Shown: in pieces, positions 3,501 to 60,370 of the stretch
How the letters are laid out: each line of letters begins with the position of its first letter
Position numbering within the stretch: the stretch's first letter is position 1
Assembly: GCF_019059575.1 (NCBI RefSeq)
Contig: NW_024882948.1
Span: 1 to 64,000, forward strand
Direction: 5' to 3'
Source: Amphibalanus amphitrite
Lineage: Eukaryota > Arthropoda > Thecostraca > Balanomorpha > Balanidae
DNA length: 64,000 nucleotides
Notes under the pieces: model-generated
What the model saw: only the letters and a program-made list of their open reading frames with translations
Told to the model about the DNA's origin: nothing
Databases searched by the model: none
Translations under genes and position numbers: made by a program

Positions 3501-6500
3501 AAAGTTGCTCTTTAAATCTTGAATCTGGAAAATGTACGTTGGAAACTTTCAGTCGATGATGAATATAGATGCATATGCCTCGAATGCCAAGGTAATTGGT
3601 ATCATCAAAGTTGGTGTGCACTTCATAACCAGGCACAGAGAACAAGACAAGGGGCACTGACGACATCCGCACCTTCGGTAGCGCTTCAGTGATGAAAATG
3701 ATATCGGGATCTTCACCACAAATAGTCATGCACAAATCATCCCTCTTGTTCAACAATTGGTCCGCATTTGTGTACCAAATACGTAGGCACCGAGTGCCCT
3801 CAGAGGCATTCTTCACGGGCAGTCACGCTTGCTGAGGTTCTGGAGGACAGCCATCAGACACCGTAACATCCAAAGATAACACACGGGAGGTATCGTTACG
3901 TGCTGATGCATCAGCTGGAACCAAGTCATGGGTTGCAGCCGACGACCGGACGACTGGCAAGGTAATGGATCTGGCACTGTCCCTTGCACTATCGAACCTC
4001 CGACCGGCTTGGGCATGTGAAACTGGCCTGTTATTGGAAATGATTCTCCCGTTGCGGATTACAAGGCTTTGTTCACCGGCTGCCCTGCGAGAGCGGAGCT
4101 CATCTCTCAACTTCCTAGAAGCCTCGCGCTCCACCTTAGTTTGGTCGGGGGAGAGGTATATGTTTCCCCATCGCACTGAATGGCGGAGCTGCGGGGCCAT
4201 TTTCAGCAGTTCGTGCTTTATGTCCTCGTTCTCCAGCGTTACCACGAGCAGTCTGGGTTTGTCAGGGTTAGCCTTGCCGACCCGAAAGGATCTGGCCACG
4301 CTAACTCGTAGTCGAAAGGTTTCCTTGACCATCTCCAAAAATTGGTTGATGTCTTCCTGGGATCTCTGCTCCAAAGTTCCAGCCCTCGGCTCCGGGAGGT
4401 TGTGCAGGATGATGTTCTTTTTTCGCTTGTCTTTGTCGAAAAAATCGTCAACGACTTTGGCTATACTTGGGACGTCGTTTGGAGGTGTGGCAGAGAGTGG
4501 CAAGGCTGACAGCTTAGCGGACACTTCACTAATAACTTCGGAGCACGAACCTCTCACTATTTCGGCATAGGTACTTTCCTGTGACTTTTTCTCGCTTATG
4601 CATCCTTCAATCAGCTTCATTCGATCACCTGCGGCTTTTTCTTGTTGTTTTAGGATAGCAGTGTTTTCCAGAATAGCCTGGTGCATTTCCTTCATCTGGC
4701 TCTCTACACTCGAGAATTGCGCATCCATCTTCTTTTCAATTGACACTTTTCCCTGCACAAGATTGCGGAAATCCTGCACATGATCTTCACATTCCTCGCA
4801 CAGCCAAAGGAGACCAAATCGAGTAATCGCTTTGTACGCCTCCTCCTCCAGGCCCTGGCAAGCTGGATGGTACCAGGTCATGCATATTTGGCATCTGATT
4901 GAACCAAAAACGTCGTTCGAAACCGATTTTCCGCAAGGCTTACCCTCGGATCCATTACAAATAACATTGCCCGTGACCTTTGGCACGCTTTTACTAGAGG
5001 GCAAGGCACCGGCTTTTTTGCCCTTTCTGTTCCTCTTACGCTTGTTCGCAACAACCCACTCTTCAAAGAATGGATCAAATCCTTCAATGAGTGAGGATGT
5101 CTCAGAATCTTCGCCAACAGAGTCGCTCATATTCAGCTAATGGTATCTTGAAAAACGAACAACTACTCTATTTAGCTGCACGAGCCTTCCTACGAAAATC
5201 AAGGGCACTTTGCCCTACTTTTACTGAGTTTTTTTTAAACAAAGACTAGAAAAAATCAACTTTTAGATGTAAGAATAAAGACTCATCTTATACTTATATG
5301 ACACAAAAGTATGTTCCATAGCATCTACGTTAAATTAGGAACATGTCAATATATAATACATTAATGAAAACAAGCTATTATCGGCTAAAATCCAAGTTTT
5401 CTAGAGCACAGCAAAACACGTCTGCACACTTCAAGAATTCATGTATACCATCGTGATCAATTCATCACAGAAAACATGTATTTTCCACCACCTCAGCAAG
5501 CCTCAGTTTCTACCTCCCTCCCATAGATGACACCATCACCAGCACCAGCGGCCCATATTTACCTCCGGGTCCCAGGTGATGTCTATATGGTGTTTGTGGT
5601 TATCGCTGATCTTGAGCGCCGGACTGGCCACCGCCGTACCCGTGCCGTAGTTCATGAACACGCGCAGACGGCCCTCCATCACATCCACGGCGAAAAAGTC
5701 TGCCGGGAAAAATGGGTTAATGACTGTCAGACGGAACAATCAAGGGAACATACCCATTGTTGTGGTTGCAATTAACATATCATGCTGTGATCAACAATTC
5801 AAATCACGCGTTGCTCCGATGTGCGTCGGGTTGGTGCAAACCTTAGCCCCTTAGGCAGATCATAAATTGCACTGCGCACGGTCTTACTAACCCAGCACCA
5901 TATCCCTAACTACGCCCAATCCCACTGACTTTCCGCACCAATACTTCTTTCTGTGTCGCATTTCTGCTGACATAGCACCAGAACCCCTCACCGCGCCCCA
6001 ATTTCCACTGACCCAGCACCATATCCCCTCACCGCGCCCCATTTCCACTGACCCTGCACCAGGTGCGACGGCTCCGAAATGGGTCCGTTGTACATGACCA
6101 GCGCCTCCTCCGAGACGGTCGTCAGGTCAAAGCTCAGGTGGGAGGCGTTGCAGGCCGTCAGCTGCGGGAACCACGCGTACCCGGTGCCCTCGAAGTGGAT
6201 GGTGTCGCCCTGGCAGTTGGGACCCGGGAAACCGGCCTCGCACTCACACCTGGAGGCGGAGGTCAGGTCACAGCTAGGGTCAGTAAACGTCAGTTTAGCG
6301 CCTTATTGACAGCCGAGAAATGGCTAAAGATCGAAAAAGACAAAGAACACGTAAAACTGAAACGATCTTAGTGTACAAGAACTCATACACAATCAACGTT
6401 TACAAGACTTAGTTACGACTTAAGATGTAATTTGTACGCTATCACCGCGGACACACTCGCCATGTTACACTGATGTTATTTACAAAGTTTAAAAACTCAC

Positions 6501-9500
6501 TTCTTCTCATCGTCACTCCAGCGGCCATCGTGCAGACAGATTTCGGGCGCCATCTTGGCCTCACACTCGTTACATTTGTACTGCAGCTCCGTCTTCACAC
6601 CTGCAAACCAATCGTTTGTCAGCACTGGGCTGAAGGGAGGGAACGAACGTCCAAAAAGCCAGAAGGTGCATATAAGGCTGCATACTGCCTTCTCGTTAAT
6701 GACACAAGTCTGAAGCCACAAGGCTTCTCCTCGTCATTTTAATGAATGAATGCTACCGTAAGGGGAGTAGATCAAAAGAGCGATAAAACTGAACAATTAC
6801 ATGGATTACCTAGAAACAACTGTCTGAATCGCCCTCTATCCGCGCATAGTGCCCTAATCGATGCATCTACAATGACATATGATCATGGGATTTGCGAATA
6901 TGATGAGCTTCATTTCATCAGACGTAGGCCAACAATAAATATCGCGACTGCGAACCATTATTTACACATGGTACAACTCAGCATATGCCCATAGATACCA
7001 GACGATCGGTTGCACAAGGTACAACCGCACTACGTACCGATGATACTCGAGGTGTTGGTCTGCACCCGGTACACCTCGTTGTCGAATATCTTCAGCTCGG
7101 CGTGGCAGCTTCCCTCGCACGTGTGTTCGTAGATGCAGTCGTTGATGCCCACCTGTTCGATCTTGATGCCGAACATGGTCTCCAGCTGTCGGAGCGTGGG
7201 GAGAACGGGTTAGAGCCCCGCTCAGTAGAGTATATTACACTTTTCTTCAGCATTATTGAATCGAAAACGAATACTATAGCATTTCCAACTACATCTAGTC
7301 ATCGTAATAAGAGATAGTTAACATCAAGCTATGCTTATTGCCCGCCCCTATCTACCCAATATCAGCTACCCTCGAAGTAATTTCCTATCCTCGCCCTCTA
7401 CGATTCACCAGATCCCTGCCTTCTAATTCCTAACTCCCAGTTCCCACCCTCTCGCTCTTTCCCTCTCACCATATCTCTATTCTGGGCGACAATGCCGTCC
7501 ATCTTCTCTGCCTCGTAGTAGGGTGAGCCGTGGGCGGCGTAGCGTACATCCACGCCTCCGTCATCGTTATCCACAACACCAAACAGGTCGACGTTCTCTG
7601 GCGCCGTACTGAACAGCCGGGCCAGCTCCGTGATAAGGCGCTCGTGCATTGAGGGTGTCTGGAAAGAGCAAGTTGGAGGAGTGAGTGAAATACAGACACT
7701 GGAAGAGAGAATTTGTACGTGCGAGCCAAACTTCAGTACCTACACGGTTTACGAGCCTACCGTACCAATGTAATTGTAAACGAAGTTGACTGATTGCCTG
7801 AGCGCAAGCCATCCAAGTTTTGAAGTTAGCCTTTGAAGATGTAGATATAATCTATAAAAAGGCTGAATACGATAGTACTTGTTTACGTCGATTCCATTCA
7901 AGGACGAGTAAAATAAAAACTCAATAGTCACTTCGGGGCTATGAATAACTAGATTTTGCATGTTCACAAACATGTCTGGAGACACGTGATCGGTCATAGC
8001 CAAGGCCACAACTCCACAGCTTGTACCAGACCATCCCACATTCGGGCATTTGTCGAGTCCTCCCAACTCCGTTAGCCTGCCTTCTCACACCATCTCCTTA
8101 CATGCTTACCAAGCCGCCTCTCACTTCTTCTACTCAGAACTCACATCCTTATCGGGGCGCGAGACGAACTCAGCAGCGGAGACATCCTTGATCCTCAGTG
8201 AACCCGACTGGGTGACGGCCTCACGCGGCAGCAGTCGCACCTCGACCGTCACCAACGCAGAAACGGTGCTCTGGAACTTCTTATCAAACACCTGGCGGCA
8301 GACACGCGAACTAATCAACCTTGGGGAAAGAGCGGGGACGGCCGAGGAAACATTACTGAACAGCTGCTATATAAAGACGCAGAGCTCCCGCACAGCGGTA
8401 AAAACAAGCAGCCAGACATTAATTAACCGGAGAACTGAAATATTGGAAAGTAATGCGAAATCCGGGAGGCTGGAATCTGAGCAAAACAATACCTTCTACG
8501 CCACTTCACTTGATTAAACACGCAGACATTCGACATTCCGCTGAATACAAAGCATCTATCCATGCAGGGTTTGGTCGTCTCAGAGACTCAGACTACCCAC
8601 CCCAGGTGTTGTGCGATTGTTCACGGGTATTCCCCCACTCTCACCTGGAACTTGAGCGGGTAGCTGCCGTTGGGAGTGCCGTACTTCATGGTGATGTTAC
8701 CCGTGTCTCTGTCGAGCTCAAAGTGACGGTACTCCTCCCCCTCGAGCCAGGAGAAGGTCTTGTCGGGCAGATCCCAGTCGTCCGGGTCATCCACGTACAC
8801 CCGGCCCACCACCGTGTCGGGCATCTTACCCTGAGGGGCGGCGGAGACGGGTCAGGTATACCGCGAACAGATACTCTACAGATATTCTACAAATATTGTA
8901 CGTGTGGGGATGAGCATTTGTAGATTATTTCATGACTGTGTAGATGCTGAATTGTCAAGACAATGGAATCACCAGCGCTCCCTTCAGTCCATCAACAAAT
9001 TACCTGGCATTTCATTGTAACCTTGCACGTGTAAACGAAATAGTGGTCAATTCTCTCAATGTTAATTTTGCAGGCTCCAATCGAGTTAGCTTACGCGAGA
9101 GTGCAAAATGAGCGTTTTGTGATGGTAAAACGGATGTTCATTTAAGCCAAATTAGCCTGTTGACGAAGCCACGGTGACTATAAATAGACGATCCTACAAT
9201 TAAATGAGAATGAGGTGGGAACTGGGAACATTGGAATATTTCGCCACTCTAATCTCTAAAATCAAATTAATAAGTCATTAATATTAAATTAAGCCATAAT
9301 AATATCTATAAGCCATAAAATCAATGATAAAGTCACTTTATTCTGTAACTACTGGAATGGTTTCCCTGCGCGGTCAGAGTCGGACAAATCTGTGGTTTCG
9401 GCACTGTTGGACCGGGGTGGAGGTTGGGCGGACTGGTGCACTCGAGACCGTCAGAACTGGATGTGGAGTCAGACGGGTCAGAGGGGTCACCATTCCACTG

Positions 9501-12500
9501 CCGTGAGGGTGGAACTGCACACTGGGGTGACATATATCGAAAGGTCTGCACCGGCAGTGGGACAAACCACTGCCAGTTGAGAGATTCCCGGGGCAACGGG
9601 TACGGGCGGTGAACACTGAATAAAACGGACACTCCTGGCAACTCTCCTAGACAAGCAGAGCATGGGATGGCGCTGCTATGGACTATGGGGAGAGGATGAG
9701 CGCTACTCCGGAGAGAGGCAGGAGGGCGCTTCTTTAGAGCGAGGTAGAGCGTGTGGTGGGGCTACCGCTACGCTATGGAAAGACCTAGATCGTGGGATGA
9801 AGTTCCTCCGAGAAAGGTAGAGGTTGGGATAGAGCCACTCTCGGGCGAGGTAGGGGTGGACAGCGCTACTCCAGGGTAGAGGATATAATGGCGCTACTCT
9901 GTTACACAGGGTGGGATAGCGCTACTCCGGGAAAGATCATGAGGTAGTGCTACTCCTTAGCAGAGGATGGGATATCGCTACTCTGTTGCAGAGGGTGGCG
10001 AACCGCTACCCCGAGTCAGAGCGAGGGAGACGGCAGACGCCAGATGAGGTAGAAATGCAATCCCGGTCCCTGGAGTGCGATGGAAATCAGTCGAGCTACG
10101 AGGCACCGACGAATGCCATTGAGTTCCAGTGAGGGGCAGAGTAGCACTGAGGAAAGGTCAGAGGTTGAACACAACGCTACCGGTACTGTGCGGAAGTTAA
10201 CGTCAAAATCCAATGGGAAGGCAGAACACCAAAATCATTCTTGTTGCATAATATGTTGACAGTGTTTCGAAACTGAAAAACAATGTGGTCACACAGTCAA
10301 AATGCAGAAAATGTGTTAAATATTCAACAAAATAAAAATAAGCATTCAAAACAAGCTTCGCACGCCGTGTTGTTTCTGCAATACTGCAAGCACGCCGACA
10401 CTGGACATTCCGGGTTCTCTGCAATCTCTGCAATTTTCAAACCGCATCGCATTAGATCTCGTGAATGCTTCAGTAGCGCGAGCTGTACACACTCGGTGCG
10501 CTCGCTGCATCGCAGATCAGAGTCATCCAGTAAACATGCCAGGCACGGTGCACACTCAGACGCAAACTCTGTACACCCGCGCGGCGTGAGCGCCAACCAT
10601 GCTGAGGGCGAGTGTGAGCACCATCAAACACCAAATACGCACTGTACGGTCCCCGAGATAGATCTTTTTCCGCACATAGTCGACTGTCAGCCAGACATTG
10701 CCCGAAGGCTCCAGAGGCTCGGCAGGCCGCTCCTGACCCTGTCCGAGGTCAGGTCAGCTACGTCAGGGCTCCAGAGTGTCAGGCAGTTCAACAAAGTCCG
10801 CTAGGTCAAACCGGTAATCAACTACTTTCACAAACACGTACTCTCTTCGTTCTCCATAATTTCCCTCCCACCCAGTGAACTGACCTCGAAGTTGAAGACG
10901 CTGATGGCGCTGACGCCGTCCTTCATGTCGTTGTCGTTCTCGTCGCCGATGATGATGGTGAAGAGACTGGTGCCCGTCAGGGAGGTCGGTGACGCCGTGT
11001 CTCGGTCACTGACCACCACCGGGATGTTGTACTCCTTCTGCATCTCGCGGTCGAACGACACCAGAGGACGGATTTCGGCACGGTTATCCTGCTCTGTGGG
11101 CGGTGAGAGGTAGAGTCGGGTCATGACACGTCGGCGGAGGTCACCAGAGGTCACCAAAGGTCAGTGGGTCACTGCAGTCACCAAAGGTCAGGTCAGAACA
11201 CCTCGTTCACCGGGGTAAATGCACCGACAGCGGCGTGCGACACACCAACCATTGAAGACAAATGACGGTGCTGGCTGTGTCGAGAGCACCATTACTCCGC
11301 CTTCAAACACCCTTTGGAGCGCCGATAGCGGCACTTCCAGTGGCCGTTTGTCCCGCCTGCCGGGGCAGCGGGTGCGCTCGACGCGGCAGAGTCCGCGGGC
11401 CAGCCAGGAGACGGCCGACGGCGGACGGCGGGCTCTCGGTTCGCACGGAACCACACACAATTAGCCGAAATGCATGGCTTTATAGGCGGCATTTCGGCCA
11501 TCCGACCGGGCCAGACGGCGCCGCGCCAGACACCGCAAGTCACCGAAACGTCAGAGGCGCGCCATAACTGCCGCCATAAACCGCGCGCCGCGCGCCAGAA
11601 GCGTCACCTGGCCGCGCCGTACCTCGTCACAATTCCGCTTTATCGCCGCAATCAAGCAAACAGTACTAACACGTCAGCCGTAACGCTGCATATTCAGCTC
11701 GGCGAGTTATTAAAGCCGACCGCCCCGGGTGAGCTTCGAACCCGTGACCTTTCAGTTACTGATCCCATTCCCTTCAGCATCACGTTCCACCTACCGACGG
11801 TGGTGACGGAGAACATGTCGTGCAGCTCGGCGGGCGCGTCCGGGTCCAAGGCGAAGGTGTAGGGCGGGCCGTTCCACTGGTGGTCGTCAAAGTCATCCGC
11901 CTCGACGGGGATGACCACACCCTCGGGGGATTTGTTCTCCATGATCACCTGGCGCGTGTCTTCGCTCTGTGTGGAGATATAAGGCACCGTCATCAGGACA
12001 GTAGCATGGGTTGGGTTATGGGTATGACTCGCACTAATGGCTACATCTGCCAGGGCTGTAGTATCTGAGCCATCCAGTGTCCAGCCAGTGTGTAGTGTGC
12101 AATGGTTACATGAAATGAAATTCTGAATGGTGAACAAAATATCCGAAACCCTGAGCGATCAGTGGGCGAAGAATATAAGATAGGTTGTGAATGTATCAAA
12201 ACACGAGCTTGCCCTTCAATCAATGCCGCTATTGGCGGAGTGCGGAAGTGACTATATATGGCCTTGGCGGAAGCCCTCTTACTGTGCGGTGCGTATGGCC
12301 TTGGTCTAAGAGTCAGTGTGAAAAATGCAGAATTCCCCTGAAATGAGGCGGCCATCTTACCTGGACCAGGTATGGCGCGTTGTCGTTGATATCGGTCAGA
12401 GTCAGTGTAAAGAGTACAGAGTTTTCCCGGCCTGCGGCGGCCATCTTACCTGGACCAGGTACGGCGCGTTGTCAGTGTCAGTGTTAAGAATGCAGAGTTT

Positions 12501-15500
12501 CCCTGGCCTGCGGCGGCCATCTTACCTGGACCAGGTATGGCGCGTTGTCGTTGATATCGGTCAGCGTCAGTGTGAACGGTACGGAGTTTCCCTGTCCGAT
12601 GCCGCCCTCGTCCCACGCCTGAACGGAGAGCTCCCAGACCTCGCGTCCGCCGGTGCCCTCGTCACGGTCCAGAATCTGCCGGAACACACGTCATAGTCAT
12701 TAACATAACAGTCACAAATTGTTACCAACCGTCACAGTGTGAAAGCCGTCAACAAACCAGCATTATCAAACCGTCAGTGCTACAGACGGGTACAGGCCGG
12801 ATCATGCACGAATAGCTGCTACACACTGCTACAGGCCACAAAGATTTAGTATACGTCACACAGTACCGATACGATGTGTCATACACCGTTTCGGTCTGTC
12901 ATAAGCCGACATCGACCGTCACAAATCGTTATAAGACTGTCACAGCATAGCCGGAATGCGAGATAATAAGAACTAAGAATGGACGGCAATTTCGATGCAT
13001 AGATATGACAGTCATGGAGACTGGAATAGACAGCTGTTCCGATACACAAATATGACAGGGTCTCAGAATGGACCTGTCTCGTATACACAGCCCACAGTCA
13101 GATGTGCCGCCGTCAGATGGGTCGTATGTCAGTCGGGACACATTAGCAACGTCCACGGTCGGCGGCGGGGCCCTCATTAATCACAGAGGCGCCATCACGG
13201 TCCGTCGGCAGCCAACGGCGAGCGGACGAACCAGGATGGACCTGGGGATAGCCGGATGGACCAGGCTAGACCCCGAGATGGGCGGATGGACCCAGGATGG
13301 ACCCCGAATAGGCGGATGGACCAGGATGGACCCGGGATAGCCGGATGGGCCAGGATGGACCCAGAGATGGGCGGATGGACCCAAGATGGACCGGGGGATA
13401 GCCGGATGGACCAAGATGGACCCCAGACGGACCCCCGACGGACCCAGTGACGAGCTGACCCAGGACATGGAGCGGATGGACCCGAGACGGGGGATGGATC
13501 TGAGACGGGCGGTTCTCCGTCATCATTCTAAGGGTAGAATCGGCTGGCAATATGAGGGCCAAGATAGGTTAGGTATGCTATGGAAACAAATGATCCAGAG
13601 TATACAAATATGCCCTATTCAAAACGTTCGGTAGCACAGAAGGACTAAAATGATAAGAGATACGATGCAGGAACGATACTTTTCAACAAAACAAACACAA
13701 CACAACTAACTGACAGCACGAATACTGCAAAGACGCAGGCGCTTGCCACAGCATTAGCTTATCAGTCGAGCTTCCATACTACCGCTGGGATCCATAAATG
13801 ATTGTCATTTCATAAAAACCAGGCCCCACCTTATCAACTGATTGGTTCCGATCGATCGTATCGAAAAAAAAAATCATAATGGCACCAACATGCGACCGAA
13901 AACAGCCGGTGAGAATGGTTCCGGCGAACAAACGTATCCCGACTGATCAAAGAATACACTGCAGAAGTTGAGCCACCTGGCTCACCTGTAGAGCCGCAGA
14001 AGCAATATCAAAACGTATGGCGGGTGTCGGTAAAGTAAGACAAACGGCATCAATATATCACAATGCCTCTACGCCTTACTGTAACTCCGGCTCTCCCCCC
14101 CCCCCCGCTCCTCTCAATACCGTCAGTCCCAGCGCTGCGTCCGCTCACCTTTTGTACCAGAACCTCTCCGTTTTCGTTGATGCTGAACACATCATCCTCA
14201 GGGTGGTCGGGGAACACTCCTGGTCCGGAGAGCTTGTACACGATCGACGAGACGCCGGAGACCGGGTCCGGGTCGGTGGCCGTGACCTGAGGGCAGCAGA
14301 GGTTAGCGGAGGTTACCAGAGGTCACCAGAGGCCAGCAAATGTCAACAGAGGTCAGCAAACGTCTGCAAGGTTGATTAAGGTCAACAGAGGCCAGTGACG
14401 TTCTGAAATCAATAACGACCAAGAGAAGTAACTTGAGGACAACAGAGGTTAGTAGAAGTCAGTAGAAAAGAGACAAGTCAACGTTGACAAAGAACGGTTG
14501 AGGTCAGTAGAAAACACTCGCAGAGTTCAACTGAGGTCAACAAAGATCAACAGATATAAATGAAGATCCCAAGAGATCAGTAAAGGCCAGGCGCATTTAA
14601 AAAAGGTCACTGAGGGGTCGTATAGTTCGTCCCCTGTCTGCAGTCGCCGGTAAAGGTCAGCGTCGGCTCGGAGTCTGAACGGCCATGAAAGATTGCCGTG
14701 GAGGCGCGGAGGACGATAAAGCACAAGCCTGGTCAGGGACGGGGACTGGGGGGGGGGGGGGGGGGGCGGTACGCCGGTGGGAGACGGTTACACGGGCCTG
14801 TTTGGCCTGCGACCCTTGACGTGAAAATGAAGCCCGTATCGCAGTAATTCACAATAATAAACAGCCATAGATGATCGCTCCACGCTACCAGCTATTGAAC
14901 AGCAGCCTTAAATAAATAATAAAGGCCGGCGAGTGCAAAAGCCATCACCGTGAACAATAGCGACATCGGGCTAATTCACACTAAATATCCACGCCACCAT
15001 TTAACTTTCAAATCATAATAAATAGCCGTGCCCAGGTGCGAACTCCGCCCCAACGGTGAAAATAAACGAGCGGAATAGCATTAATAGTGACATTTTCAGG
15101 TCGGACAAACATGAAGTGTTGCCGCCTTCTTTGGAAGGCCCCGGTCGGATGTCCAGCTGTACCGATAGTTTCTCTGTGGGGTCTCGGCGTATGACTCGCG
15201 GTGCACACAAGTGTCCGTTCATCAATATCGGCAATCCATACGGGCACCGAATGAAACTGCGCCACTTTGGTCATCACGCCGAAATTACGAACATCGATTT
15301 CAGTTCCGCGCCAGGAAACGTGACTTATCAGCTAGTGGTTTCGCGAAAGGCATTGATCCTAGCTCTCAGGCAGTGTACTATAGTAGTTTTACGAAACCAA
15401 CCGCAGCCCACTCAGTGGCACTTTCCACTCTGTCGCCGGCGAGCCACGACGACAAAAGGTTTTACTTGTTACACCGGACGCGAGGCTCGCGAAAGGGCAC

Positions 15501-18500
15501 AGCGAACGGCGAAAATTGCCCCAGTAAACCGGGAAGTAAACGCCAGCCATGAAATTGCTATGTCACGTCCGGCACGAATGGCTCATATATTCGCACGTCG
15601 TGACGACAGCAGCCGAATGAATTATACATGCTCTCCAAATTACCCGGCCGCTTCTGCTCCGGCTTCACTGTTCACGTACGAAACCATTAATTCATTCGCT
15701 GTCTGCTAACACCCTACCGGAGCGCTATATGCGGGCCTTGCCCCGAGATCGGCTCTATATTATCCGAGTCAACTGGCAAGAGCCGTCAGTCATGGTGAGA
15801 GTTTCGTCAATAGTGAGTATACTGAGTTACGTCAATGGAGAGTGCTGAATTTCGTCAATAGTGAGTATGCTGAGTTACGTCAATGGAGAGTGCTGGGTTA
15901 CGCGAATGGAGAGTGCTGAGTTACGTCGATGGTGAGTACTGAGCTAAGTCAGTGGTGAGGTACTGAGCTGAGCAACATTGATAGCGAGTTAAGTCATTGG
16001 TGAGTTACCTACGTCGATGGTGAGAGGGTGGGTCGATTCTCACCTTGACGATGGGCTCGGAGGAGTCTCGCGGCCCCTCGCTCATCTTCAGCTGGTAGCT
16101 GGGCTTGTCGAACACGGGAGGCACGTCATTGATGTTGGTGACGTTGATGTCCACAGCGTGGGTGGCCTCGTACTTTCCGTCCGACGCCGTCACCGTGATT
16201 TTGTACTGCAGAAGACGAAAAGGTCAGTTAGGAGACTGGCTATATTAACATTGACTCTTGGCCAGCTGAATTAAGGATACTACGCTGAACCATATATTTG
16301 GCTTCTCAGACGTAAATGCATAAGTATTCTTTCCACATTGATACAATAAATCGATGCGCAATTTAATTCATGAATATCATTTAGAGCATCGCAATTCACA
16401 GTAATCCTCATTTAAAAATAACTCGCACAATTCTCTCCGAGAGCCAGGGTCGTGGACCGTGGTGCTGTTGGATCAGCATACAGCACTTGCGTCTAGGTCG
16501 CGGGGACTCACTGTGTTGACTCGCTCAAAGTCGAGTGCGTTCTTGACTCTGACGATGCCCGTGTCGGAGTCAATGTCGAACACGCCGCCGTAGTTGCCGT
16601 CCGTGATCTGGTACTGGATCTTCGAGTCTGACATTGGAGAGAGGCAGGTCACGACATACTCGTACAGTAGTTTGGGAGCACAAATAAACATGAGGGCATA
16701 AATCTGGGTCCTGAGCCGGTCGAAGACACCTCCACATTACGGCGAATAATACAGCATGGTGCATAGTTACTATGATACCAGCTGGCAATTGAACACAAAA
16801 TGACATCGATCCCTTATTTTTCGGGGAACAGCTCCAGCATATGACACGATCATTTTTATCAGACTGTCAGTACCAGTAACACACACACGACGACAATGTA
16901 GTATTGTCTACGAATCACCAATACAACGCCTAAAAATAGAACACAACAGTCCGAAGATAACATTCTTTCCTGCTGAATAGAAAACACATTTATAGCACAT
17001 ATAGCTTCTCCGACACCCAACTCTTCCGGGGAAGAAACCAAAAAGGTAAACTGCCTTAAAACCACTCCGGATCCCTGACCCAGCCACTCACCCGAGTCCT
17101 GGTCGCTGGCGAGCACCTCCATGACGTTGGCGCCCTTGTTAGCCTGTTCCGATATGGTGGCCTTGTATCTCCGGTTGGGGTCGAACACGGGTGGGTTGTC
17201 GTTCACATCACCAATCTCCACCTTGATGCGCTGTTTCACTGAGGACGGATGGCGGAGGTCAGGTCATGGAACAGGTGACCGGTGGGGCGCCATTTGCGCT
17301 TTATGGCATACCAGTATCTCCTCAGCGACAAGATACAGCGTGTAGGTACTGTAGGCCGTGGTAGAAATGAATTATAAGCAGAAAAGCCAACCTTAACAAT
17401 TAGTGTTTTATTATATATGCATTCTGCAACAAATGTTTGTACGCAGATGGTCTACTACGTAGTAACTACAGACTCCGGCTCAACTAGATTTATGCACAGG
17501 CCGAATTGGTCGACACGACAATGATGATAATCCGAAGACAAAAGAGCGTTCCATCAAAGTCTCCTCAACAAAAAGAGAATTACGGCAATAGTGAGCGTAA
17601 GTCATTAGCGCCTTAATACTAGTACATCAACATGGCTACTGATTACGGCTGCATTATTTACTGCCGTAATCCCCACCACCAGCAATAGCGTATTTCCCAG
17701 CATAATGCTGGGTAGAGACGTATGTACATACATGAGTCGAGCTGGACCGGAAGACGAGCCTTGCCATACTTGTATACTACGACACGAATCTCACCATACC
17801 TGTACTAGGTCAATACGTGTCCCACTATTCCAATGTTTGGTCAAAACATACCCCATCACACCTTTGTTACGCCGCTTTATAATATGTCCCATCACACCTG
17901 CCTCAAGTCAAGCCGAGTGTCACCATACCGCGTTGGCTCGACACGAGTTCCCTAACCTATGCTGAGTCGAGACACCTCCCACTTTACCTGTATTGGGTCG
18001 AGACATCTCCCACCATACCTATATTGGGTCGAGACACCTCCAACCGTACCTGTATTGGGTCGAGAAGTGTTGCGGATTCCTGACGGCGCCCCGTCCTCCG
18101 CCACCACAGTGACAGTGTAGAAGGGCGATGGCCGAGACAGGTCTTCCCGATCGAAACGCTCCCGGGTCTTGATCTCGCCCGTGTTCGGGTCGATGCTGAA
18201 GAGCTTCTCTTCTTCCGAGTTTGGCTCGAAGCGGTAGGTCACCTGTGGGGAGAGCGGAGGGGTCAGCGGGAACGTTCATATGAGGGTTATCGAAACGCGT
18301 GCTGTAAGAAATATACGCCCAATGTGAAAGTGGAGGAGGATGAGGGTTGAGAGATAATGAAACTGTTCACGGGTGTAGTGAGAATATTGAATGATGTTAA
18401 CAGTCACTTTCACGGCCCGGCCCATTCACAGGCCACACATCAGTGACCCGGAGGGCTGACACATCAGTGAATCAATGACCCTGACACACACGTCGCTCAA

Positions 18501-45500: not shown

Positions 45501-48500
45501 ATCACCATTACCCATCATTTCCCTCTTTCAGCCAACCCGACCCGGTAATAGAGAAAGCAGAAACACAAAACATTTTATGGAGCCATTTACAAGCAAATTA
45601 TACCGCACCCAGACGTTAGCCTGGATTGGTCCGCGAATTTGGAACTCAATGATTGCAACGCATTTCCCATCCATTAAAGCTGAACCTGTATCAAAAAGAA
45701 CAATAAAAGAAACATCGAAGCAGCTTATGATAGCTGAATACTAACTCCATAACAATTATAGGTCTATTGGGCTGTGGACAGGATGCTGTGAACGACTGTA
45801 CGGAGGAATGAATGCACGCATACAGGGTAACCACGTAAGCTAAGTAACGTAGAAGCGGGCTCCGCCGGCCTGTGGCGGAGCCCTGCGTTGCCGAGCATTG
45901 GGCCCCCGCCCCTATGACCCATCCGGGCCAACCTGGGTACCGGTCCCACTTGAAAGGGACCGGTCGGCCGTCCGGGCGGGCGGGGCGCCGGCCTGTCGGG
46001 TCGGGTCGGCGCTCCCCTCGCCCGGGCGGTGGTTAGGGGGCACCCCCGGGAAAGATGATTTTCCGGGGGTGCGGGCGGGGGCTCGCGGCCCGCCTGGCCG
46101 TCAAACATTAAAACTTATTGTAGGTTAGTAGTTCTCTTGCCCGTCTTTCCTTCCCAGCTGTATTCCTTCTCCGTCTTTTTTCCTCTCTCGTTGATGTTAC
46201 CTCTCATTTTCGTTATATTGCATTAATTTCTACTCCAACCACCTCGGAACTGGCCTCTGTGGGCTGTCTGACAACAAGCTCTGCTTAGTTGGACAGCTTT
46301 ACAGAGGCTCAGTGAATGACCTCGCTTGAATTTGACCAGAAATGTTCCCTACGACCATCCACCATGTATGTATGACTGCTCCCTCTAATCCCTTCCTCCC
46401 ACTAACAATACCCTGTGTAAGTGTGCATCAGTGGGTGTTCTTGGCGTATTTTAAAATAAAAAAAAAATAAAAAAAAACCTGCACAACGCGGAAATTATAG
46501 CAACGTGTTGCCGCTGGCCAGGCTTCGGCCACCGATCTGGATCTGGGGAGGTCAAATATCCCCGTGACCTTCGAACAGCGGAGAGTCGCGTGGTGTGCGG
46601 AGACCATTAGTACCGTGCTCTGGGCTCCCCGCTGATGACCCGACCTGACCTTGGTCGAGTTTGTGGCGCTCGATTCATTCTGCTCTGGTGTGGTGTACCG
46701 GGACGGTGCGGCTTGTGTGTGGTGAGTGCGGTGCGGTGAGTGTTCGAAAAACTGTTGTGTTGCATTGCATTTAACAATACGCGCACTGCAGGGGGGTTGC
46801 TTTCAACCCCCCTTTGGTTTTTCACAGATCACGAGAAAACGGCGGCGCGCAGCAAGGCCAAATTTTGTATACCTTTTCTCCCATATTCTGCGCACATTGT
46901 GTGAAAATGCTGACTCCAGATGACCTAAGGTCAGGTCACCAGGCCAGGTTAAGTGACGTCACCTCCGAAAAAGTTTGCACTTGCACCAAAGCTACAGCTG
47001 TTGAGCAATCGATATGAAACTTTTAAGATGTAGTAAGGGTGACACTGACCCGGTTTCCATGGGCACTTTGAGACATAGCGGATTACGGGAGGATTAGGGT
47101 TGTAATTCCGACCCGTACTCACGGAACCCATGTTTTTAAGTGGATTAGGGTTCGAATGCCTCCGTTTTATCGGCTGAGAATAAAAAAGTACCGGAAATTA
47201 CGGAAAGCAAGCTGTAATCGCACTAATCCTTTATTTCACTGATCCGATCAGTGAAATAAAGGATTAGTGAGGGTTGAAATAAAGGTTAAAGGTTAAAGGA
47301 AATAAAGAAATAAAGGTTGAGTTACCAATACTTTGCACGCATCATTTCACACGGGACTTTGCACATGCCAAGTTGACTTGCCAAGTTGACGTCACTTTGC
47401 TGGATATTTCGCACTTGGCCTGACTTCGCACTTGGACTGGGAGCATAAACGCCCGTCCATTCGCAAACGGCCTAGGCCAACTGCAATAACGCACATGGAC
47501 TAGTCTATTCGCAAACGGTCTAGTCCAAGTGCGTTATCGCACTTGGACTAGGCCATTCGCGAATGGACTAGCCTTCGCACTTGGCCCGCAACATATATAG
47601 TCTAGCACTGCATTGGGTGAATACTGAAATCATGAACAGAAGTCAGAAATTGTGCATATATCAGGCACACATAAAAATCCAGTTACGAAAACATCCCACA
47701 TGAAGCCTGTCGGCATCCACCCACCTTCAGAGTGGTGAGCTGTCCAGTGGTGCGATCAATGTCGAAGAAGGACTCTGGCGAGCTGGGACTGGTGACCAGC
47801 GAGTACTCGACCTCAGCGTTCTCGCCTTTGTCCGCGTCAATCGCCTCCACCTGAACACACAGAGGGCAGAGGGATTGGTGACGGGGGCGAACGATCAGAT
47901 GACACAGAGGCACAGGACACATGGATGGACTATTGTTACTGATGTTAGCAAATAGCCATTCCTTCTGCCAAACTCATTATAGCTTAGCTGATGCAGAGAA
48001 CAGCAGAATTTTCGCGCTGGGCAAGAGCATGCATGCAACAGATAAAAGCATCCTTGTGTCTATTCATTCCTTCGTACGCTTTTTCATAATTAACAGAGAA
48101 AATCCACTGGTATGAAGTGCAACCCACCCCTGACAGGCAAAAGCCGTCAGAAGCAATCCCGGAACTATTTCAATTCCGGAGGGGAAGTGAGAGACCCCTC
48201 CCTCCTCCCCGGGGTGTCAGGAAGCTGAGCCGGGGATCGGACGCTCGCCTGCTGAGCTCTCCCCTATATCAGGAGAGTGGGGAGGCGGAAAGATACCTCA
48301 AGGGAGGGAGGGGAGCGTGTGTCATCATTGCCCAACTAATACACCCACTCCGACTCTGACAGGGGTTGCACATGGCTAGGAGCTGCCACCGACAACATAA
48401 ATATGTTGTTCACGCGTTGATATTATCCATGAAAGCTAGACTAAAAATAGAAAAATGAACACAATCCTCGAATATGGGAAAAGTGTGGCAAGAAACACAT

Positions 48501-51500
48501 ACAACATTCATGGTTTTGAAGAATTGTGACCGAGTTGAGGCTTTTCAGCCAACAATAAACCGCAATGGCAATAGCCGCTACAATCGTACTACCTCGATCA
48601 TAAAACTTCCTCGCTCTCTCATTAAATATTAATTTTCTTACATCAGCCTCAGCAGTCCTAATCTTAGAAGGGTGCATGCTGCACGCGAGTAATAAGAGGC
48701 AAAAAAAATCAAATTAGGGAGAACCGCGATAAACAGAGACCACTAGGTCCCCACCAACTCTCCCCAACCAAAACACACATCTACCTGCCTACTACGCAGC
48801 ACCCCCCCCCCCCCCCCTCTTCCCCCCCACCGCGTCCCGCCAGCCACTCATACATCCAACATACATCAATTCCATCCCACTTTACCAACACCGCACTATA
48901 AAAATAGACCCAACTAACAAGAACACGGAGTAACCAAACACTAGACTAAATCACCACTAACCTGAGTGGTTTAACTCTATTTGATGCACCCTCATCCCGA
49001 CTGGACAGCAAACTACTCGCGGTAACGACATGAAGCAAATTAACGACCCCGCCAGGTGAATTGAACAACACTCAAACAATCGTGCCAATCACCGTGTTGC
49101 CCGCGGACATCTGCCCCATAAACGCAGTGAATGCAGCCCAAATTCAGTGAGCGTTATCCACACAGCAGGCGCTGGCTGTCCATTGGCCGACGCGGCACTG
49201 ACAGTGGCTGCCACCACGGCTGTCAGGTGCGGCAATTAATGACAGAACAATCCGACAATGTCCATGGACCATGAGTCCAGCAAGGTCATGGTACATGCGG
49301 TACGGCGCGGTGCGGTACGGCACGGGACGGGACGGGACGGTACGACATTGTACGGCACGACACCGTACGGGGCGTCCCGGCATGGCAAGGGACAGCACTG
49401 ATACGGTCATACTGTATTGCTTACTTTACTAAGATCTGTTACCTATAAGATACGGTATGTCACGGTATATCAAGTAAAACTAAACACGATAGCATTCGAT
49501 ACGACACGCTAAGCTATATCGCGGTACCGATTCTCACCGATTCAATGCTACGATGTAGTCAATACGACTTGACAAGACGTAATATGATATTATATAACAC
49601 GATACAAAATAGAACTGGTAACTCGGGCGTAATAACAGGGAGACTGGTATGTAAGGAGCGTAAGGGGAAGGAGTCACAGTAACTATTTCCAGCCGTCAGT
49701 ATGACATGGCCTTAATCAGCTGATACAATCATACATCAGAATACAAAGGGCCCGGTGGCAATCCATGCAGTGGACTGGCCTGCAGGAGCCATGGACGGGG
49801 CAGCGCATTTATATTCCCCGGGTCTGATTCATAGCTCGACAGAGAGTGATGACACTATCGATTTTCGTAAGGTGTTTAAATACGTTTGCTGATTTGGTCA
49901 TAACCAATGTGAAAAAAACGAAGCGAGCTTCTGATTGCTGCTCTGCTGCAAATGCATGAACACAGGGCTAGTCAGGCCTAATGGATATTGCTACTCAGAT
50001 TCAACAACGTTGAAATCAAGGCAATGCTATCAAAACGCGACTCAGCACGTCCAACAAGCACACATCACTTACTCAATAATTTCATTCACGTAAATCCAAT
50101 CAGTCAAATAGTTGGCTTGGAACATTGATGGTTTCAATCCTTTGCCATTCAGCATTAATGAACAAATATATGGCTCACCACCACCTATTGCAATGTCCAT
50201 AATACTGATTGGTGCTCGGAGCTGGCCGACTGCCGGTTAATATACGACACCCCTCCGCAGCGTTTGATTAATTCAGCTTAGTCAATGCGCGGCCGTGGAT
50301 CAGCGAGCGCTCGGCGAAGTCTGTCCGCTGCAGCAGGCGATTACTGAACACACCCCCGGGACGCACACGCACAGGGTCTACCTACTCGTGCAATGAGAGT
50401 CCCGCAGTCGGCGGTGTAGGTAAGATGAAAAGGTAAAGAAGTTGGCAGCGATTTCCCGGAACTGGAAAGGTCATGGCACTATCTTAGTCCTTTGAGATGA
50501 CTTACTGGATTTGGTATGGCGCACGCTTAAATTTAAAGCTGCGTGGGTATCGTAAAAGTTCTTGAAAGTTTTCCCAAGATATAGCTTTGCCTTAATGAAA
50601 TATTCCATGAACAGAGTCGAAATACGCACAACTATCGCATTAAGTGACGGAAATGTACCGATGATTTTCATACGTTCAGATCATTTGATGACAAGTAAAA
50701 GGAATCGGCTAAGCCACAGACTTCTCTATATATAGAGAAGTCTGTGGCTAGGCAGTTGATAATTGCATGCATTTAAAAGTAATATTGATTGATTGACGTC
50801 TTTATGAAACAAACACACAAACCATGGCAACAACAGGGATGTTCCACCAGTGAGGTCACGGTATGTCCACCAGTGACGTCATCACTCACCGTGAGCACCG
50901 GCGTACCGCTGGGCTTATTCTCCTCCACCTCGGGACGGTAGTTCTCGCAGTCGGGGAACATCGGACGATTGTTGTTGACATCTGCGAACACAGGAAAAAG
51001 TAACGCGCTGGAAATCGGTGCGGTTATGTGGGTTTGGTTAAATGGGGCGCTTTTATCAGCAAGCACATACAGGGTGGGCCAAAAAAAAGTGTGTCACTTT
51101 TCAGCAGTAATTTCTCGAAAGTGGTAAGAGATACGAAAAAGAAACTTTCACAACTTAAAGAAAATCGTTTGACAAATTATGTGATACCAATTTTATGGAA
51201 AAGTTTCAATCGAACTGACGTTGCATCATCGATTTAAAAAACGGGATCTGTGCGTCTCTTTATTTGCGCATGTGCTTGAAGTGGGCACCGCCAAGCTGAA
51301 CGCGCTCCAGGAAGCTGACGCCCACCTCTCCGCGGTGTCTGCTGGCACTTCACGCACGTACTGCTCGACGCTGACACGCAGCTCCTCCAGGCTACCGGGC
51401 TTGTTGTGATAGACGCTGTCGCTGTCCTTGCAGGCTCCCCAAAACCAGAAGTCCAGCGGGTTGAGGTCAGGACTGTGAGGAGCCCACTGCTTTTCGCTTC

Positions 51501-54500
51501 CCTTGGAGATCACGCGGCAACCGAAGAGCTCTTGTAGCAGCTGCAGTGTCTCTCGGGCCTTGTGCGGTGGCGCTACATCTTGCATGAACAAAGCTTGTAG
51601 CGTGATCACCAAGGGAAGCGAAAAACAGTGGGCTCCTCACAGTCCTGACCTCAACCCGCTGGACTTCTGGTTTTGGGGAGCCTGCAAGGACAGCGACAGC
51701 GTCTATCACAACAAGCCCGGTAGCCTGGAGGAGCTGCGTGTCAGCGTCGATCAGTACGTGCGTGAAGTGCCAGCAGCCACCGCGGAGAGGTGGGCATCAG
51801 CTTCCTGGAGCGCGTTCAGATGGCCTTCAGCTTGGCGGTGCCCACTTCAAGCACATGTGCAAACATAAAAGACGCACATATCCCATTTTTTGAAATGGTG
51901 ATGGCAACATCAGTTCGACTGAAACTTTTTCATAAAATGGGTATCATATAATTTGTCAAACGATTTTCATTAAGTTGTGAAAGTTTCGTTTTGGAATCTC
52001 TTACCACTTTCGAGAAATAGCCGCTGAAAAGTGACACACTTTTTTTGGCCCACCCTGTATGCCTAGTGCTTTAAGTGTCGTCGAAGACTGGTATAGCCAA
52101 TTTGGCAGATCTTCCCTTGTAAACAATAAATTGACTTTTCCACAAGCGTGAAGCTCCAATGTCGAAATGCGAAAGTAGATAAAAGAAAATAAGTTTAGAA
52201 AATTGTTTGCGTAAGTTCAAAACATTCATTAGCTTAGGAAAAGAAAGTGCTATCAGATTTTTCTTTATTCTGAACCAGTTATTCGATCTCCCCTGACAAC
52301 ATTTTCCGGGAATAGTACCTTCTTTTCATGACATCCTTACCATACAACTTGCACACAAATCAATCTGAACCGCCGGCAGGTTAGCCCCTACTGAATGACA
52401 ATCAATAGCATCCAATCAGAGCCTGTATCAGAGCGTAGTTGTGCGCTATAGCCGTCCTGTTCCCGGGGACCCAATCATTCTGCATCAACCACTGTCGCAC
52501 GTGTGTCTAACTCGCCGCTGCCAGCCACGGTCCTGGCCTACCCTGCACTCGGCACATATAAGTTAAAGGAAATAGTTCACTTTTTAACATGGGTTTTGAA
52601 CTGGAATAGCAGTTCCGTAGCTTGGGCTGAGACGAGCATAAATCAGGAGCTTTTACAGCCCAACGATCACCCTAGGCAAAGATATTCTATTTCTCGTCCC
52701 GAAAAAGGTGTCTTGCGTTGAGGATGTGTGCCTTGCATATATTTCCATCCAGTATGAAAAGAGCATGGGTCCCGAAAATTCTTCAGAAACTAGAGAAATT
52801 ATCTACGAGAACTCTAGAGAAATTCTCGTACTGATCAATTAGGACATTCAGGGGAACATTATCAGATCGAGCAGATCGCCCAAATGCCGGTGGCTGCGAT
52901 AATTTCTCTGTCTCTGAAGAATTTTCGGGACCCATGCTCTTTTCATACTGGATCGCGTGTGCCTTACAGAAACTGAAAAGTTCTTCCTATATCAAAATAT
53001 AGAAAAAAAATCTTTTGTTATAAAAAGGTTTTATTTTCTTTGCTGATTATTTTGAACATAAAAAAAAATAAACCGTTGCAAAAAAAATAATTTCGTGAAA
53101 GTGAACTATTTCCTTTAATCAACACGGCACAGTTCTTCCCCGTCCACGTGCAACATCAGCTTTTATATCTTCTGTCGTAAAGACAAGATGCGCTATTAGC
53201 TGCGCTCTATAGTAACTCTACCGGGAGCTGGCCCGCCTCTTTCTTATTCCGCTGCTCTCTCAAAGAGCCGACTGACATTAGCTCAGTCATATCTGCGTCC
53301 CAAGCTCGGTCGGATCATACGCGTCCAAAGCTGAGTCGGGAAGCAGGGGCCACTGACGCTGGGCAAAAGTCCCGCGGGCACAAACCCTCATCAGAGCGAC
53401 AGCTGCCCCCGCGGAGGACCAGTGGAAACGACACAAAGGATAGCAACAGCTGAGCCATAAGTGCGCGGTCTCTCTAGCTAGCGCCAGTGGATGGAAGAAA
53501 ATGACTTAAACCCAAAGCCGAGATGGGAGAATTCTTTCGCAAATTTCACCTGAGACCCACGATGAGGATTTAGTTAGCAGCGCGACTACGATTCACCATT
53601 CTCTACCTCGTTTTCCCTAGCAAACACAAAATACTAATATTGAATATCTACCATAGAACTAATCGAAGGACGTCTATCTTTCGACGAGTCCTATTGATCT
53701 AGCCTGATAGGATATTGAACATCTTCAAACACCGGCTGCTCTTTTCGCACTACCACTGTTTCCCCTGTCCACAATGAAGCCATCATCTATGATGCCGCCG
53801 CTGCCGCCGAGCGAGCGACATGCCAACGTCAGCTGTCTTATTTGGTGGTGAGGAGGGTTAGTGGATTTGTTGGCGATGGCCCGCTGCTACTACAGTGGCT
53901 ATACCATCACAACAGCGCAGTTGTGGACAATGGGCGGTGGGCGGTAGGCGGTGGACGTTGGAAGGTGGATGGTGGACGGTGGACAGTGAACGGTGGATGA
54001 CGGGCGGTAGACGGTGGACGGCGGTCGACGAACGGTGGACGTTGGGCCGCTGACGGCGGGCAGAGGTCGGATAGCGGACACAGACCACGGACTATGTGCA
54101 ATGCAAAGCTGGGGACGGGTATAGTATCCCTAGTGGAACATCCCAGATTATCTCTCCTGTGAAAGGATGCGACTGAGCCGGCTGGACCAGAGCGGATCAG
54201 CTGGATCAGGTGGATCAACAGGATCACCGGTATCCAGATGGAACCAGGACCAAAACCAGCCAGCGTGACAGCGGAATGGGTGCGTGAAAATCCGGCGAGG
54301 GGGATCACAGGAGGGTCATCAGCGGCGGGATCCCCAGCGGAGGGGAAACCCGGGGAAAGACCGCGCTGGGAGGCAGAAGATAATACCCCCGGATCAACGC
54401 TCAAAGGGGTGTAAGTTGAGACACCGCCACCCAAAAGACAGGACGAAATAAGCCCGGTATCGAGCGTTCAGGGAGAGAGGATTCCTCTGTCGGATGCAGA

Positions 54501-57500
54501 CTTCGCTTACAAAATTAATGAGGCTGCCATTTGTAAAATGGAAAATAGAAACTTCTTTAGCAGCTGCTGAAACCAGTGTTGAGTGATAAATATTGCTCGT
54601 TTCGCACAATATGACTGCATAAAAAAGGAACAATATCTGCAATGGCGCCGGGCAGGGGACCAATCATAATTTGTTGCTGCGACCTGACCTTTCTATTGGA
54701 CCGCGTAATCTAATTTCACCGAAGAATTATGTGACTTCAGTCCGGCATGACCCGAAATTGGAACATTACCGAAGATCCCCGAATAATGCACAAAAGGAAA
54801 AGGGCGTAATCATATGGAAAGAGCTTAGAAGATAAAACCAAACTAAATGAAACGGTTACACGAATACTACAAATATTGTACAGTGTTAACTGCTTTACCT
54901 AGAATGTCCAAATCTGATATTTCAAAGAGGATTTCATCTGTACAGGTACTAAGGGCTCATCACCGAACATACATCACATGTACATACCCTTGCAATCCTT
55001 ACGCAATGTAAACAGACTACCTAATCATTAGGTTGCCGCTCTCCCGCCACTCACCTATAATGTGCACGTGCACAGCTGCCGTGTCGTTCTGGTTGTGCGT
55101 GTCACGTGCGATGACCAGGAACGAGTAGTCCTCCTCGGTGAACTGAAACGGCCTCGTCACCAGGCGGATGACGCCCGTCTGGCGGTTGATGGTGAACTGA
55201 AACACATCGAGGGGAGCCCTGGTGAACTGAAGTATCAAACATGGTGAACTGAAACACATCGAGGGGAGCCCTGGTGAACTGAAGTACCAAACATTTTAGC
55301 GAATACAGTGCGATACGCCGCAATTTCACATTGTGTGGTGTCTGCTGAGATAAAACACACTCCGGGCATGAGTGAACTGGAATACAAACCAAGAACTTTG
55401 GCGAATTGAAACAAACTACGGACGGTATACACAATTGGTCATAGAAGATAGCTGCTCAGCTTAGCTGTTAGTATTTACGTTCCAATCCAAGACGTTTTGA
55501 TTTCTGAACTGATATGCATATGCAAACACGTCACACCAGCCTTCCTAACGAACGTTCCATCCAATTATTCTGTAACAACGGCACTCAAAATGCGCTGTCC
55601 GTCACCCAATTCCAAGGCAGGCATGCCTCCGCGTACCATCTCCCTCTGGGACGGAGGACACACGGCGGGACAGGGGCGGCGGAGTGGGCGTATGTTGGGA
55701 CAGGGGGAGGGGAGGCGGGCGCCAGACCAGGCCCAGTCCGGTCCCAATTAAGTACGACTCGCCTGGGACTGCCGACGTCCCCGAACAATCGCGATATCAC
55801 CTCGATACACGTCTGTCTGGCCGTCTGCTCGACACGTCTGCATCTGTCTATTGGCAAGGGCGGACCGGCGCCGGAAAACACCCCAGGGCGTCTACCGTCC
55901 AGCGTCCACCACACCCTCGCCCGGCGCTCACTGAAAGAAGTTGGCCTGTCCGACCCTGTTTTCGACAGGCCAGGTGCGGCCGGGTCGCGTGGCTCACGCT
56001 CGAAAACATTCCTGAGTTAAACGTGGCGGAAGATAAAAACGACCAAGTAAATAACGGTATTTTCCCATTAGCCTATCGGCGGGAAAATGAATTCCTCCGG
56101 TAGGACCAAACGGTAAACTAGCCGCGTCCTTCGTATATCTAACATAAACGGCCCAAGTGGCATTCAGGTATCCACCAAACATCGACGCTAAAGCATAAAC
56201 AAACGGTACCGGGCGCGCTAAACGGTCGTTTCTGAAGAACCAATAACGACAGGACAGCGCCTTCCGCAAGGTCAAAAACGGAAAGGCGAATACAGCGCTT
56301 CGCTGTCGCATTTGTTAAGCTGTACTTCACGCCTTCACCTTTGCAATCGTCCACCTATCGGCTCTGTCAGCACAATGTGACAGCACTGCCAGCACTGTCA
56401 AAGTGACAGCAATTTCACTATAGTATACCCGATGGGAGGCGATTTTATTATGTATTTTGACTCGCTCTATGACGTCTATGTCGGTATAGCATATATATAG
56501 CAATTACGACACATGAACTATGCGGCATTTGTCAACGGAATAATGAGGATAACAGACCTACTCGTATATGCAATTGCACAGCCCAAAAGAAAAAGCTGTT
56601 AAGCCACTAAGAAGACAGTGAGCAGAGGTCTTCAGAAAGACAATTTAGCAATGCATTGCCATCCATCTACTTTTAAGTCATTCTACAGAATACCATTCTG
56701 ACTTTCAGCGACAATAGATTGACGATGTTATCGAATCAGCCGAAACTCTCAGTCCTTTTATTCCTCCTGATGGCATAGGTAACTTTTTTCAAACAGAGAA
56801 CTAGAGGTCGTCTGCGTTGGCGAGTCGCTGATAGAATGGATCTGATTATATAGGCCGTAGAGTGCAGCCATTAGCGGAGGCATTAGCGATCGACGCCGGC
56901 CGCAGTGGGCTAAAATCTGCCGCGGGCATCGGGCGCCGGGTCAATCAGGTCGGTCGGCTGACGGTGGCTCTCAAACATCTGCATAATGGTACTGCTGCAG
57001 ACATTTCGACAGGAGGATTTAGACAAAGGTCGCCGGAATCGCAAGAGTAGATGACATTACTAGCATTGTAATACAAAGGATCATCATAGCGGATTGATGT
57101 AGAATCCAAAAGTCATTCACCCACTTCCCCACCTCAGCCCACCCTTCCTTATCGCCATGAAGTGAAAATGGCATTATAAACATTGCCTTGACTGCAATAA
57201 AACATATACAGGGTGATCCAAAAAAAAATGGAACCCCTAACTTAAAATGTCTATAAGTCCGAAAATATTCACTTTATTGACAAATTGCGAACACCATTAG
57301 AAAGAGCATTATATCCTCTAAACATATCACGTAAAATTGGTGCATGTATGTTGTAAAGCATTGGCACACTATTAGCTTTTGGAATGAGCGTCAGAAAACT
57401 GAGTGAAACGAAATCGCCAAATGTTAACAATGCGCTGAAATCCGTTAGCACTCTATCTCTTGTCTTTTTGCGAATATCACCACATCCAAATTCAATTTTA

Positions 57501-60221: not shown

Positions 60222-60370
60222 CTGGGGGCAGGGCAGGTCAGGTTAGGTCAGGTTAGGTCACAACAGGAACATAAACCACAGCGCGCACCAGTAAGCCTAA
60301 GGAGACAGGTCAGGCCAGGGTTCTACGCCACTGGGCGCACCACGTGCCTGGGGCAGGTTAGGTCAGGTCA
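60200..60370. repeat. triplicated acceptor of exon 1
   Basis: Three copies of acceptor plus about 25 exon bases. On the gene strand: CCCCCAG|GCTCACTGGTGCGC (60221), CCTTAG|GCTTACTGGTGCGC (60296) and CCCCAG|GCACGTGGTGCGC (60347). Between them lie taacctgacc repeats. Confidence 0.9.

Follow-up and report, generated by a model that had tools for sequence, protein, structure and literature searches.

Tandem repeat arrays across exon borders of a cadherin gene resemble the "mirage" minisatellites of lancelets

Why should tandem repeats lie across the exon-intron borders of a gene, and do so at several borders at once? The question is raised by a 64,000-nucleotide stretch of genomic DNA (contig NW_024882948.1, positions 1 to 64,000; hereafter the window), which contains part of a DE-/DN-type cadherin gene. 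A first-pass annotation held that at least eight exon edges of this gene had been turned into repeat ladders whose units carry the splice site together with exon bases, and took this as a sign that some process seeds repeats at splice sites. Ladders are indeed found at seven of the named edges (60221, 55196, 40601, 25749, 18050, 12526, and 6053), and the aligned copies do carry the splice site plus 2 to 67 exon bases; the eighth edge, donor 40452, lies near background. The border arrays are probably minisatellites of the type called "mirages," generated by local tandem duplication and tolerated at exon borders.

Arrays were located with Tandem Repeats Finder (TRF) and by alignment of copies to 49 exon edges (the donor of exon Y was excluded), an alignment that had no control of its own. 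The offset of a copy is its distance from the true edge, and its exon bases are the exonic part present in it. TRF returned 57 rows in the window, 54 of them with a unit of at least 7 bp and together covering 5.4% of it. A TRF array touches six of the eight named edges, with units of 31, 32, 32, 41, 52, and 76 bp, and the array at acceptor 60221 was found by alignment only. Copies scoring at least 26, with at least 4 exon and at least 3 intron bases, occur at 7 of the 49 edges, namely six of the named ones (25749 is absent) and acceptor 14286. Six of the seven confirmed edges have at least one copy with 8 or more exon bases.

The most extensive copying is seen at donor 12526, where copies at offsets 76 (24 exon bases, 44/45 identical) and 165 (67 exon bases, 82/92 identical) are present; the latter, at 12336-12427, repeats the end of exon O, 67 of its 92 positions being exonic. 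At donor 6053, the copy at offset 40 is identical at 34 of 36 positions and includes 9 exon bases, and a decayed extra copy lies at 5886-5940. At donor 18050, the aligned copy contains 16 exon bases, and a weak distant one at offset 250 contains 21 (22/28). At acceptor 40601, copies at 32, 64, and 160 hold 5, 8, and 4 exon bases, and at acceptor 55196 a single copy at 52, with 8 exon bases and 34/34 positions identical, is accompanied by an inner TTCAG/TTCACC repeat (the slash marks the border). The copies at acceptor 60221 are unevenly spaced, at 75 (21 exon bases, 36/44 identical) and 126 (23 exon bases, 42/50 identical). At donor 25749, copies at 32, 65, and 126 contain just 3, 3, and 2 exon bases, so the array adjoins exon F rather than including its end. 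Acceptor 14286 is a borderline member: its score in the self-match scan described below is 29, with an exon side of 1, and the exon match is marginal; a further copy at 14428-14452 (21/25, 5 exon bases) has no AG. Donor 40452 reached a self-match score of 11, when 9% of null samples score at least 10 and 6% at least 12, and no TRF row covers it.

The exon limits on which these assignments depend were set by splice junctions and phase, those of exons G, K, and P being fixed by phase. The edge coordinates given in the first-pass annotation coincide with terminal exon bases of the rebuilt model. Joined, the 25 exons of this single sequence give one stop-free reading frame of 1,333 residues with phase-consistent junctions. 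The product has the domains of a DE-/DN-type cadherin, namely cadherin repeats, a DE-cadherin Ig-like domain, and laminin G; in Pfam it matches Cadherin (9e-99, seven stretches), Ig_Shg, the DE-cadherin Ig-like domain (3.1e-24), and Laminin_G_2 (2.6e-13). A PDB search returned cadherins of many kinds (best 60 of 170 rows), and the product may also contain an EGF-like segment (CECEAGFPGPNCQ), read by eye.

At all seven arrays, the open reading frame uses the exon-proximal copy. Decoys, the duplicated sites within the intron, were scored with a small matrix derived from this gene (two extra rows for exon A stood one base out of register), and 15 of the 17 in-register decoys would introduce a stop codon. 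The two that keep the frame open lie at offset 93 at donor 18050 and offset 30 at acceptor 55196; these two exon limits consequently rest on the reading of the cadherin sequence. The frame thus suggests that the authentic splice site is the exon-proximal one, although two edges have an alternative that also stays open. Several decoys match the true site in score, among them both copies at donor 12526, each of which reads CAG/GTAAGA, and the acceptor copy at 55196. Others have decayed. The nearest two at donor 25749 read GTGACT, a change from the true GTGAGT, and the offset-64 copy at acceptor 40601 has lost its AG.

The excess of arrays at borders was assessed in several ways, all post hoc and on one gene chosen for its arrays. 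In the placement test, 39 arrays were placed at random 5,000 times, either within the same intron or anywhere noncoding; the array at 60221, missed by TRF, was added by hand, and results are given with and without it. This set and the pseudo-site counts below exclude units shorter than 7 bp, arrays touching 900-5200 (a long interspersed nuclear element, LINE), 36300-39050 (a nested gene), 44500-45800, or 51200-51900, and everything past 63100. Seven of the 39 arrays cross an exon edge versus a mean of 1.1 expected within their own introns (P 0.0002-0.0004); with the hand-added array left out, six cross versus 1.1 (P 0.0004-0.001). Placement anywhere noncoding also yields an excess (P 0.0004-0.002). 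A border-centered self-match score of at least 18 was reached by 8 of 50 edges; 8,000 samples drawn at 4,000 noncoding positions put the expectation at 1.6, in a null that masks 200 bp around exons and the same elements. Circular shift of the 50 edges gave 2.4 expected (P 0.0017), and cut-offs other than 18, from 12 to 25, gave P 0.003-0.037. Requiring a match of at least 5 on the exon side left six edges versus 2.1-2.7 (P 0.015-0.049, the highest value at the laxest cut-off). The eight edges divide equally into four donors and four acceptors (of 25 each), two of them (14286 and 25749) with hardly any exon match. On the other side stands the coverage test, which counts edges inside TRF arrays under circular shift over all 64,000 positions. 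At a TRF score of 50 with 4 flanking bases, 5 of 50 edges were covered versus 2.5 expected (P 0.11); 6 flanking bases gave 4 versus 2.4 (P 0.22) and 8 gave 3 versus 2.3 (P 0.40), and TRF scores of 40 and 30 gave P 0.14-0.47. The concentration at exon borders claimed in the first pass is therefore upheld by placement and not by TRF coverage, and the excess in this gene is suggestive, its strength varying with the test.

Is splice-like sequence repeat-prone in itself? Mostly not, by the counts at pseudo-sites deep in introns. On the gene strand, scores of at least 18 were found at 0/24 GTRAG[TA], 0/39 [AC]AGGT[AG], 9/191 GTNNGT, and 4/120 YYYCAG sites, and on the other strand at 2/40, 2/31, 16/133, and 0/66, compared with 8/50 real edges; the opposite-strand GTNNGT class (12%) comes near the real edges (16%). 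These counts do not call for seeding, and seeding would be compatible with them. The flanks of exons are rich in repeats more generally. Repeat-like positions account for 15%-17% of intron sequence up to 100 bp from the exon, 12% between 100 and 200 bp, and 4%-6% deeper, and for about 2% of exon positions at least 20 bases from an edge; within the first 100 bp, the share is no higher at the junction itself than beyond it. In the placement test, 16 arrays lie within 200 bp of an edge versus 7.9 expected. Because the border arrays fill much of the flank, this gradient does not tell whether repeats are seeded at the junction or the flanks as such are repeat-prone. Base composition was considered as a cause of the excess and rejected, since the GC content of exon flanks (0.473) is not above that of deep introns (0.48). 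The motif TGACC, which we take to be a likely branch-point motif, has 23 occurrences within 60 bp upstream of acceptors versus 2.5 expected, is present at 12 of the 25 cadherin acceptors, and lies inside the repeat units at acceptors 40601 and 60221.

Table 1. Positions of the border arrays and of the cadherin gene and its exons in the window
Feature	Position	Strand	Detail
Array across exon W donor (edge 6053)	5960-6062	-	TRF unit 41 bp, score 150
Array across exon O donor (edge 12526)	12293-12549	-	TRF 12395-12549, score 261
Array across exon J donor (edge 18050)	17966-18065	-	TRF unit 31 bp, 3.2 copies, score 158
Array adjoining exon F donor (edge 25749)	25652-25751	-	TRF unit 32 bp, score 119
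Array across exon E acceptor (edge 40601)	40597-40737	-	TRF unit 32 bp, 4.4 copies, score 142
Array across exon B acceptor (edge 55196)	55189-55294	-	TRF unit 52 bp, 98% matches, score 205
Array across exon A acceptor (edge 60221)	60198-60372	-	Alignment; TRF here only 60235-60260
Array beside exon N acceptor (edge 14286)	14295-14364	-	TRF rows, 10/20-bp unit; borderline member
DE-/DN-type cadherin gene, part	351-60221	-	Classical, non-chordate type; 25 exons A-Y
Exon A	60118-60221	-	
Exon B	55055-55196	-	
Exon C	50890-50981	-	
Exon D	47725-47850	-	
Exon E	40452-40601	-	
Exon F	25749-25940	-	
Exon G	23899-24101	-	
Exon H	22128-22314	-	
Exon I	19690-19866	-	
Exon J	18050-18242	-	
Exon K	17092-17238	-	
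Exon L	16512-16627	-	
Exon M	16044-16205	-	
Exon N	14149-14286	-	
Exon O	12526-12675	-	
Exon P	11795-11966	-	
Exon Q	10885-11093	-	
Exon R	8645-8830	-	
Exon S	8145-8291	-	
Exon T	7470-7658	-	
Exon U	7038-7185	-	
Exon V	6501-6600	-	
Exon W	6053-6249	-	
Exon X	5563-5699	-	
Exon Y	351-587	-	

The explanation advanced in the first pass, seeding of repeats at splice sites, here taken as a process linked to transcription, splicing, or DNA breaks that starts duplications at exon borders at a raised rate, draws on the roughly sixfold excess of edge-crossing arrays over placement within introns, on the involvement of donors and acceptors alike, and on the density of TGACC before acceptors and its presence in two repeat units. 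We nevertheless regard it as fairly unlikely. The TRF coverage test is not significant, the gene is a single one chosen post hoc, and the exon part of the copies varies from 2 to 67 bases, which indicates duplications without one fixed starting point. Repeats at the acceptor of the nested gene (36480-36912), offered as a hint that the phenomenon is genome-wide, did not hold up either: this upstream region contains no TRF row, and loose CAGTGACC-like motifs were seen there by eye only. Arrays do gather at borders beyond random placement, as the first pass supposed; seeding itself is not demonstrated. That the stretch is simply repeat-rich, with some arrays happening to touch exon edges, would agree with the coverage test and with the 5.4% of the window in TRF rows, and is nonetheless very unlikely given the placement results, the circular shift at a score of 18, and the copying of exon stretches of 16-67 bases at three edges.

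The suggestion that decoy splice sites are maintained by selection, buffering or regulating splicing, could point to the decoys at 12526 and 55196 that match the true sites. It runs against the stop codons that 15 of 17 in-register decoys would bring and against the decay of those at 25749 and 40601, and is highly improbable. An assembly error, in which allelic or stuttered copies were wrongly placed in tandem, would be in keeping with the 98% likeness of the array at 55196, as expected of allelic copies, and one lancelet mirage appears to be aberrantly assembled in a draft genome, according to extracts of PMC3087553. The five other TRF arrays at named edges show 73%-91% matches, however, and the copies at 60221 are no closer than noted above; such divergence speaks of time spent in the genome, contrary to an artifact, the chance of which we put close to negligible.

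Local tandem duplication tolerated at exon borders accommodates these observations. The copies contain splice-site plus exon bases, and a single frame runs through the exon-nearest copy of each. A stretch spanning the exon-intron border would have been duplicated in tandem, perhaps by replication slippage, repair, or unequal exchange, and the copies would then have multiplied and decayed within the intron. Such duplications may survive because the exon-proximal copy keeps the frame, supplying the full exon end and its splice site, the others presumably being spliced out. Splicing would disregard the decoys and the events would be neutral; the mixture of intact decoys, decayed decoys, and decoys leading to a stop is in keeping with duplication and subsequent neutral decay within the intron. 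The border excess probably mixes this tolerance with two further effects: copies anchored in conserved exon sequence stay recognizable for longer, and exon flanks are somewhat repeat-prone. Several points weigh against this account. By our own reasoning, tolerance and slower decay predict an excess of at most about twofold, in contrast to the sixfold of the placement test (7 versus 1.1), and seven or more crossings would still have P 0.0075 against a mean of 2.2. Composition, set aside above, does not supply the cause of the excess. The finding that none of the 39 arrays lies wholly within cadherin exons is weak support for tolerance, as by length share none would be expected with P about 0.05, and the excluded nested gene holds a coding array (38705-38852). 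The open-frame alternatives at 55196 and 18050 count on the same side.

Other elements share the window with the cadherin gene. The intron between exons X and Y contains a LINE-like element on the minus strand (958-5136), with a 954-residue endonuclease/reverse transcriptase reading frame preceded by one of 437 residues with a PHD-finger match. The 14.5-kb intron between E and F holds the nested reading frame on the opposite strand (36900-38966, plus), with two Sushi stretches; its coding minisatellite has a 36-bp unit. A reverse transcriptase fragment (44566-45744, plus) includes a perfect 54-bp tandem duplication within its frame (44602-44709). Nested inverted repeats occupy 51077-52051, with arms of 225 nt (97%) and 165 nt (87%); both strands code for a putative transposase-like peptide, read by eye, for which Pfam gave no match. 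Two arrays with related palindrome-like motifs, at 43832-43976 (TGCGAACGGACTAGTCCGTT) and 47455-47571 (GTCCATTCGCAAACGGACTAGG), lie about 3.5 kb apart, and a GC-rich satellite (63518-64000; unit 5 to 51 bp) reaches the window end. An Rfam scan of the window gave no match at gathering thresholds. GC content is 49.5% in the window, 48.2% in non-exon DNA, and 82% at third codon positions, and the non-exon CpG ratio is 0.93. Extracts of barnacle papers give exon and intron sizes of an order similar to those of the cadherin gene, which together with base composition makes a barnacle, or another GC-rich invertebrate, a conjectural host.

Border arrays are already known as a kind. In the portions of the reports available, "mirages" are described in the lancelet Adh3 and globin genes as minisatellite-like tandem duplications spanning exon-intron borders, on the donor or the acceptor side, with AG/GT signals in many copies and with length instability (PMC3087553). 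Further examples are given in PGBD5 and TnC (PMC3902484), and regular splicing is reported or argued (PMC3087553; PMC3902484). In the same portions, units measure 10-72 bp in Adh3, 150-160 bp in globins, and 60 and 108 bp in PGBD5, and there is one array each in the globins BflGb6 and BflGb9 and two in PGBD5 (PMC3087553; PMC3902484). The cadherin arrays are alike in that tandem copies run across the border, and their units fall within the published 10 to 160 bp. They are unlike in that one gene has seven of them, tested against placement and known here from sequence alone. The window also differs in GC content, 49.5% as opposed to the 41%-42% that an extract of PMC11907188 gives for Branchiostoma lanceolatum chromosomes, which suggests that the host is not Branchiostoma. 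The mirages described in these portions are all from lancelet genes; the other matches for the name concern a nematode and pines, and wider searches listed a part of their matches, so that reports under other names may be missed. The cadherin gene thus exemplifies a known kind well and may place it in a new host lineage; should the host lie outside the lancelets, the trait would extend beyond the published lancelet reports.

Related repeats are found in human genes in segmental duplications, where, in the part of PMC2812944 consulted, internal minisatellites have units averaging 30 bp and lie in some cases at exon-intron boundaries. Recent paralogues differ in those repeats, which can give rise to new introns (PMC2812944, same part), unlike the cadherin copies, which the frame argues remain intronic. 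Mirages have been proposed as a route to intron gain (PMC3087553, in extract), and intron gain by tandem duplication of AG/GT sites is discussed in passages of PMC3087553 and PMC4974935. The cadherin gene shares with that route duplicated splice sites as raw material; it differs in that no new intron is seen and the arrays lengthen existing introns. It is distinctly unlikely, at present, that exon borders in a non-lancelet animal are genome-wide hot spots for tandem duplication; mirages would then arise generally from breakage linked to transcription or splicing and would continually supply new splice sites and introns. With seven border arrays in one gene, about sixfold over random placement, the hot-spot question is open to a genome-wide count.

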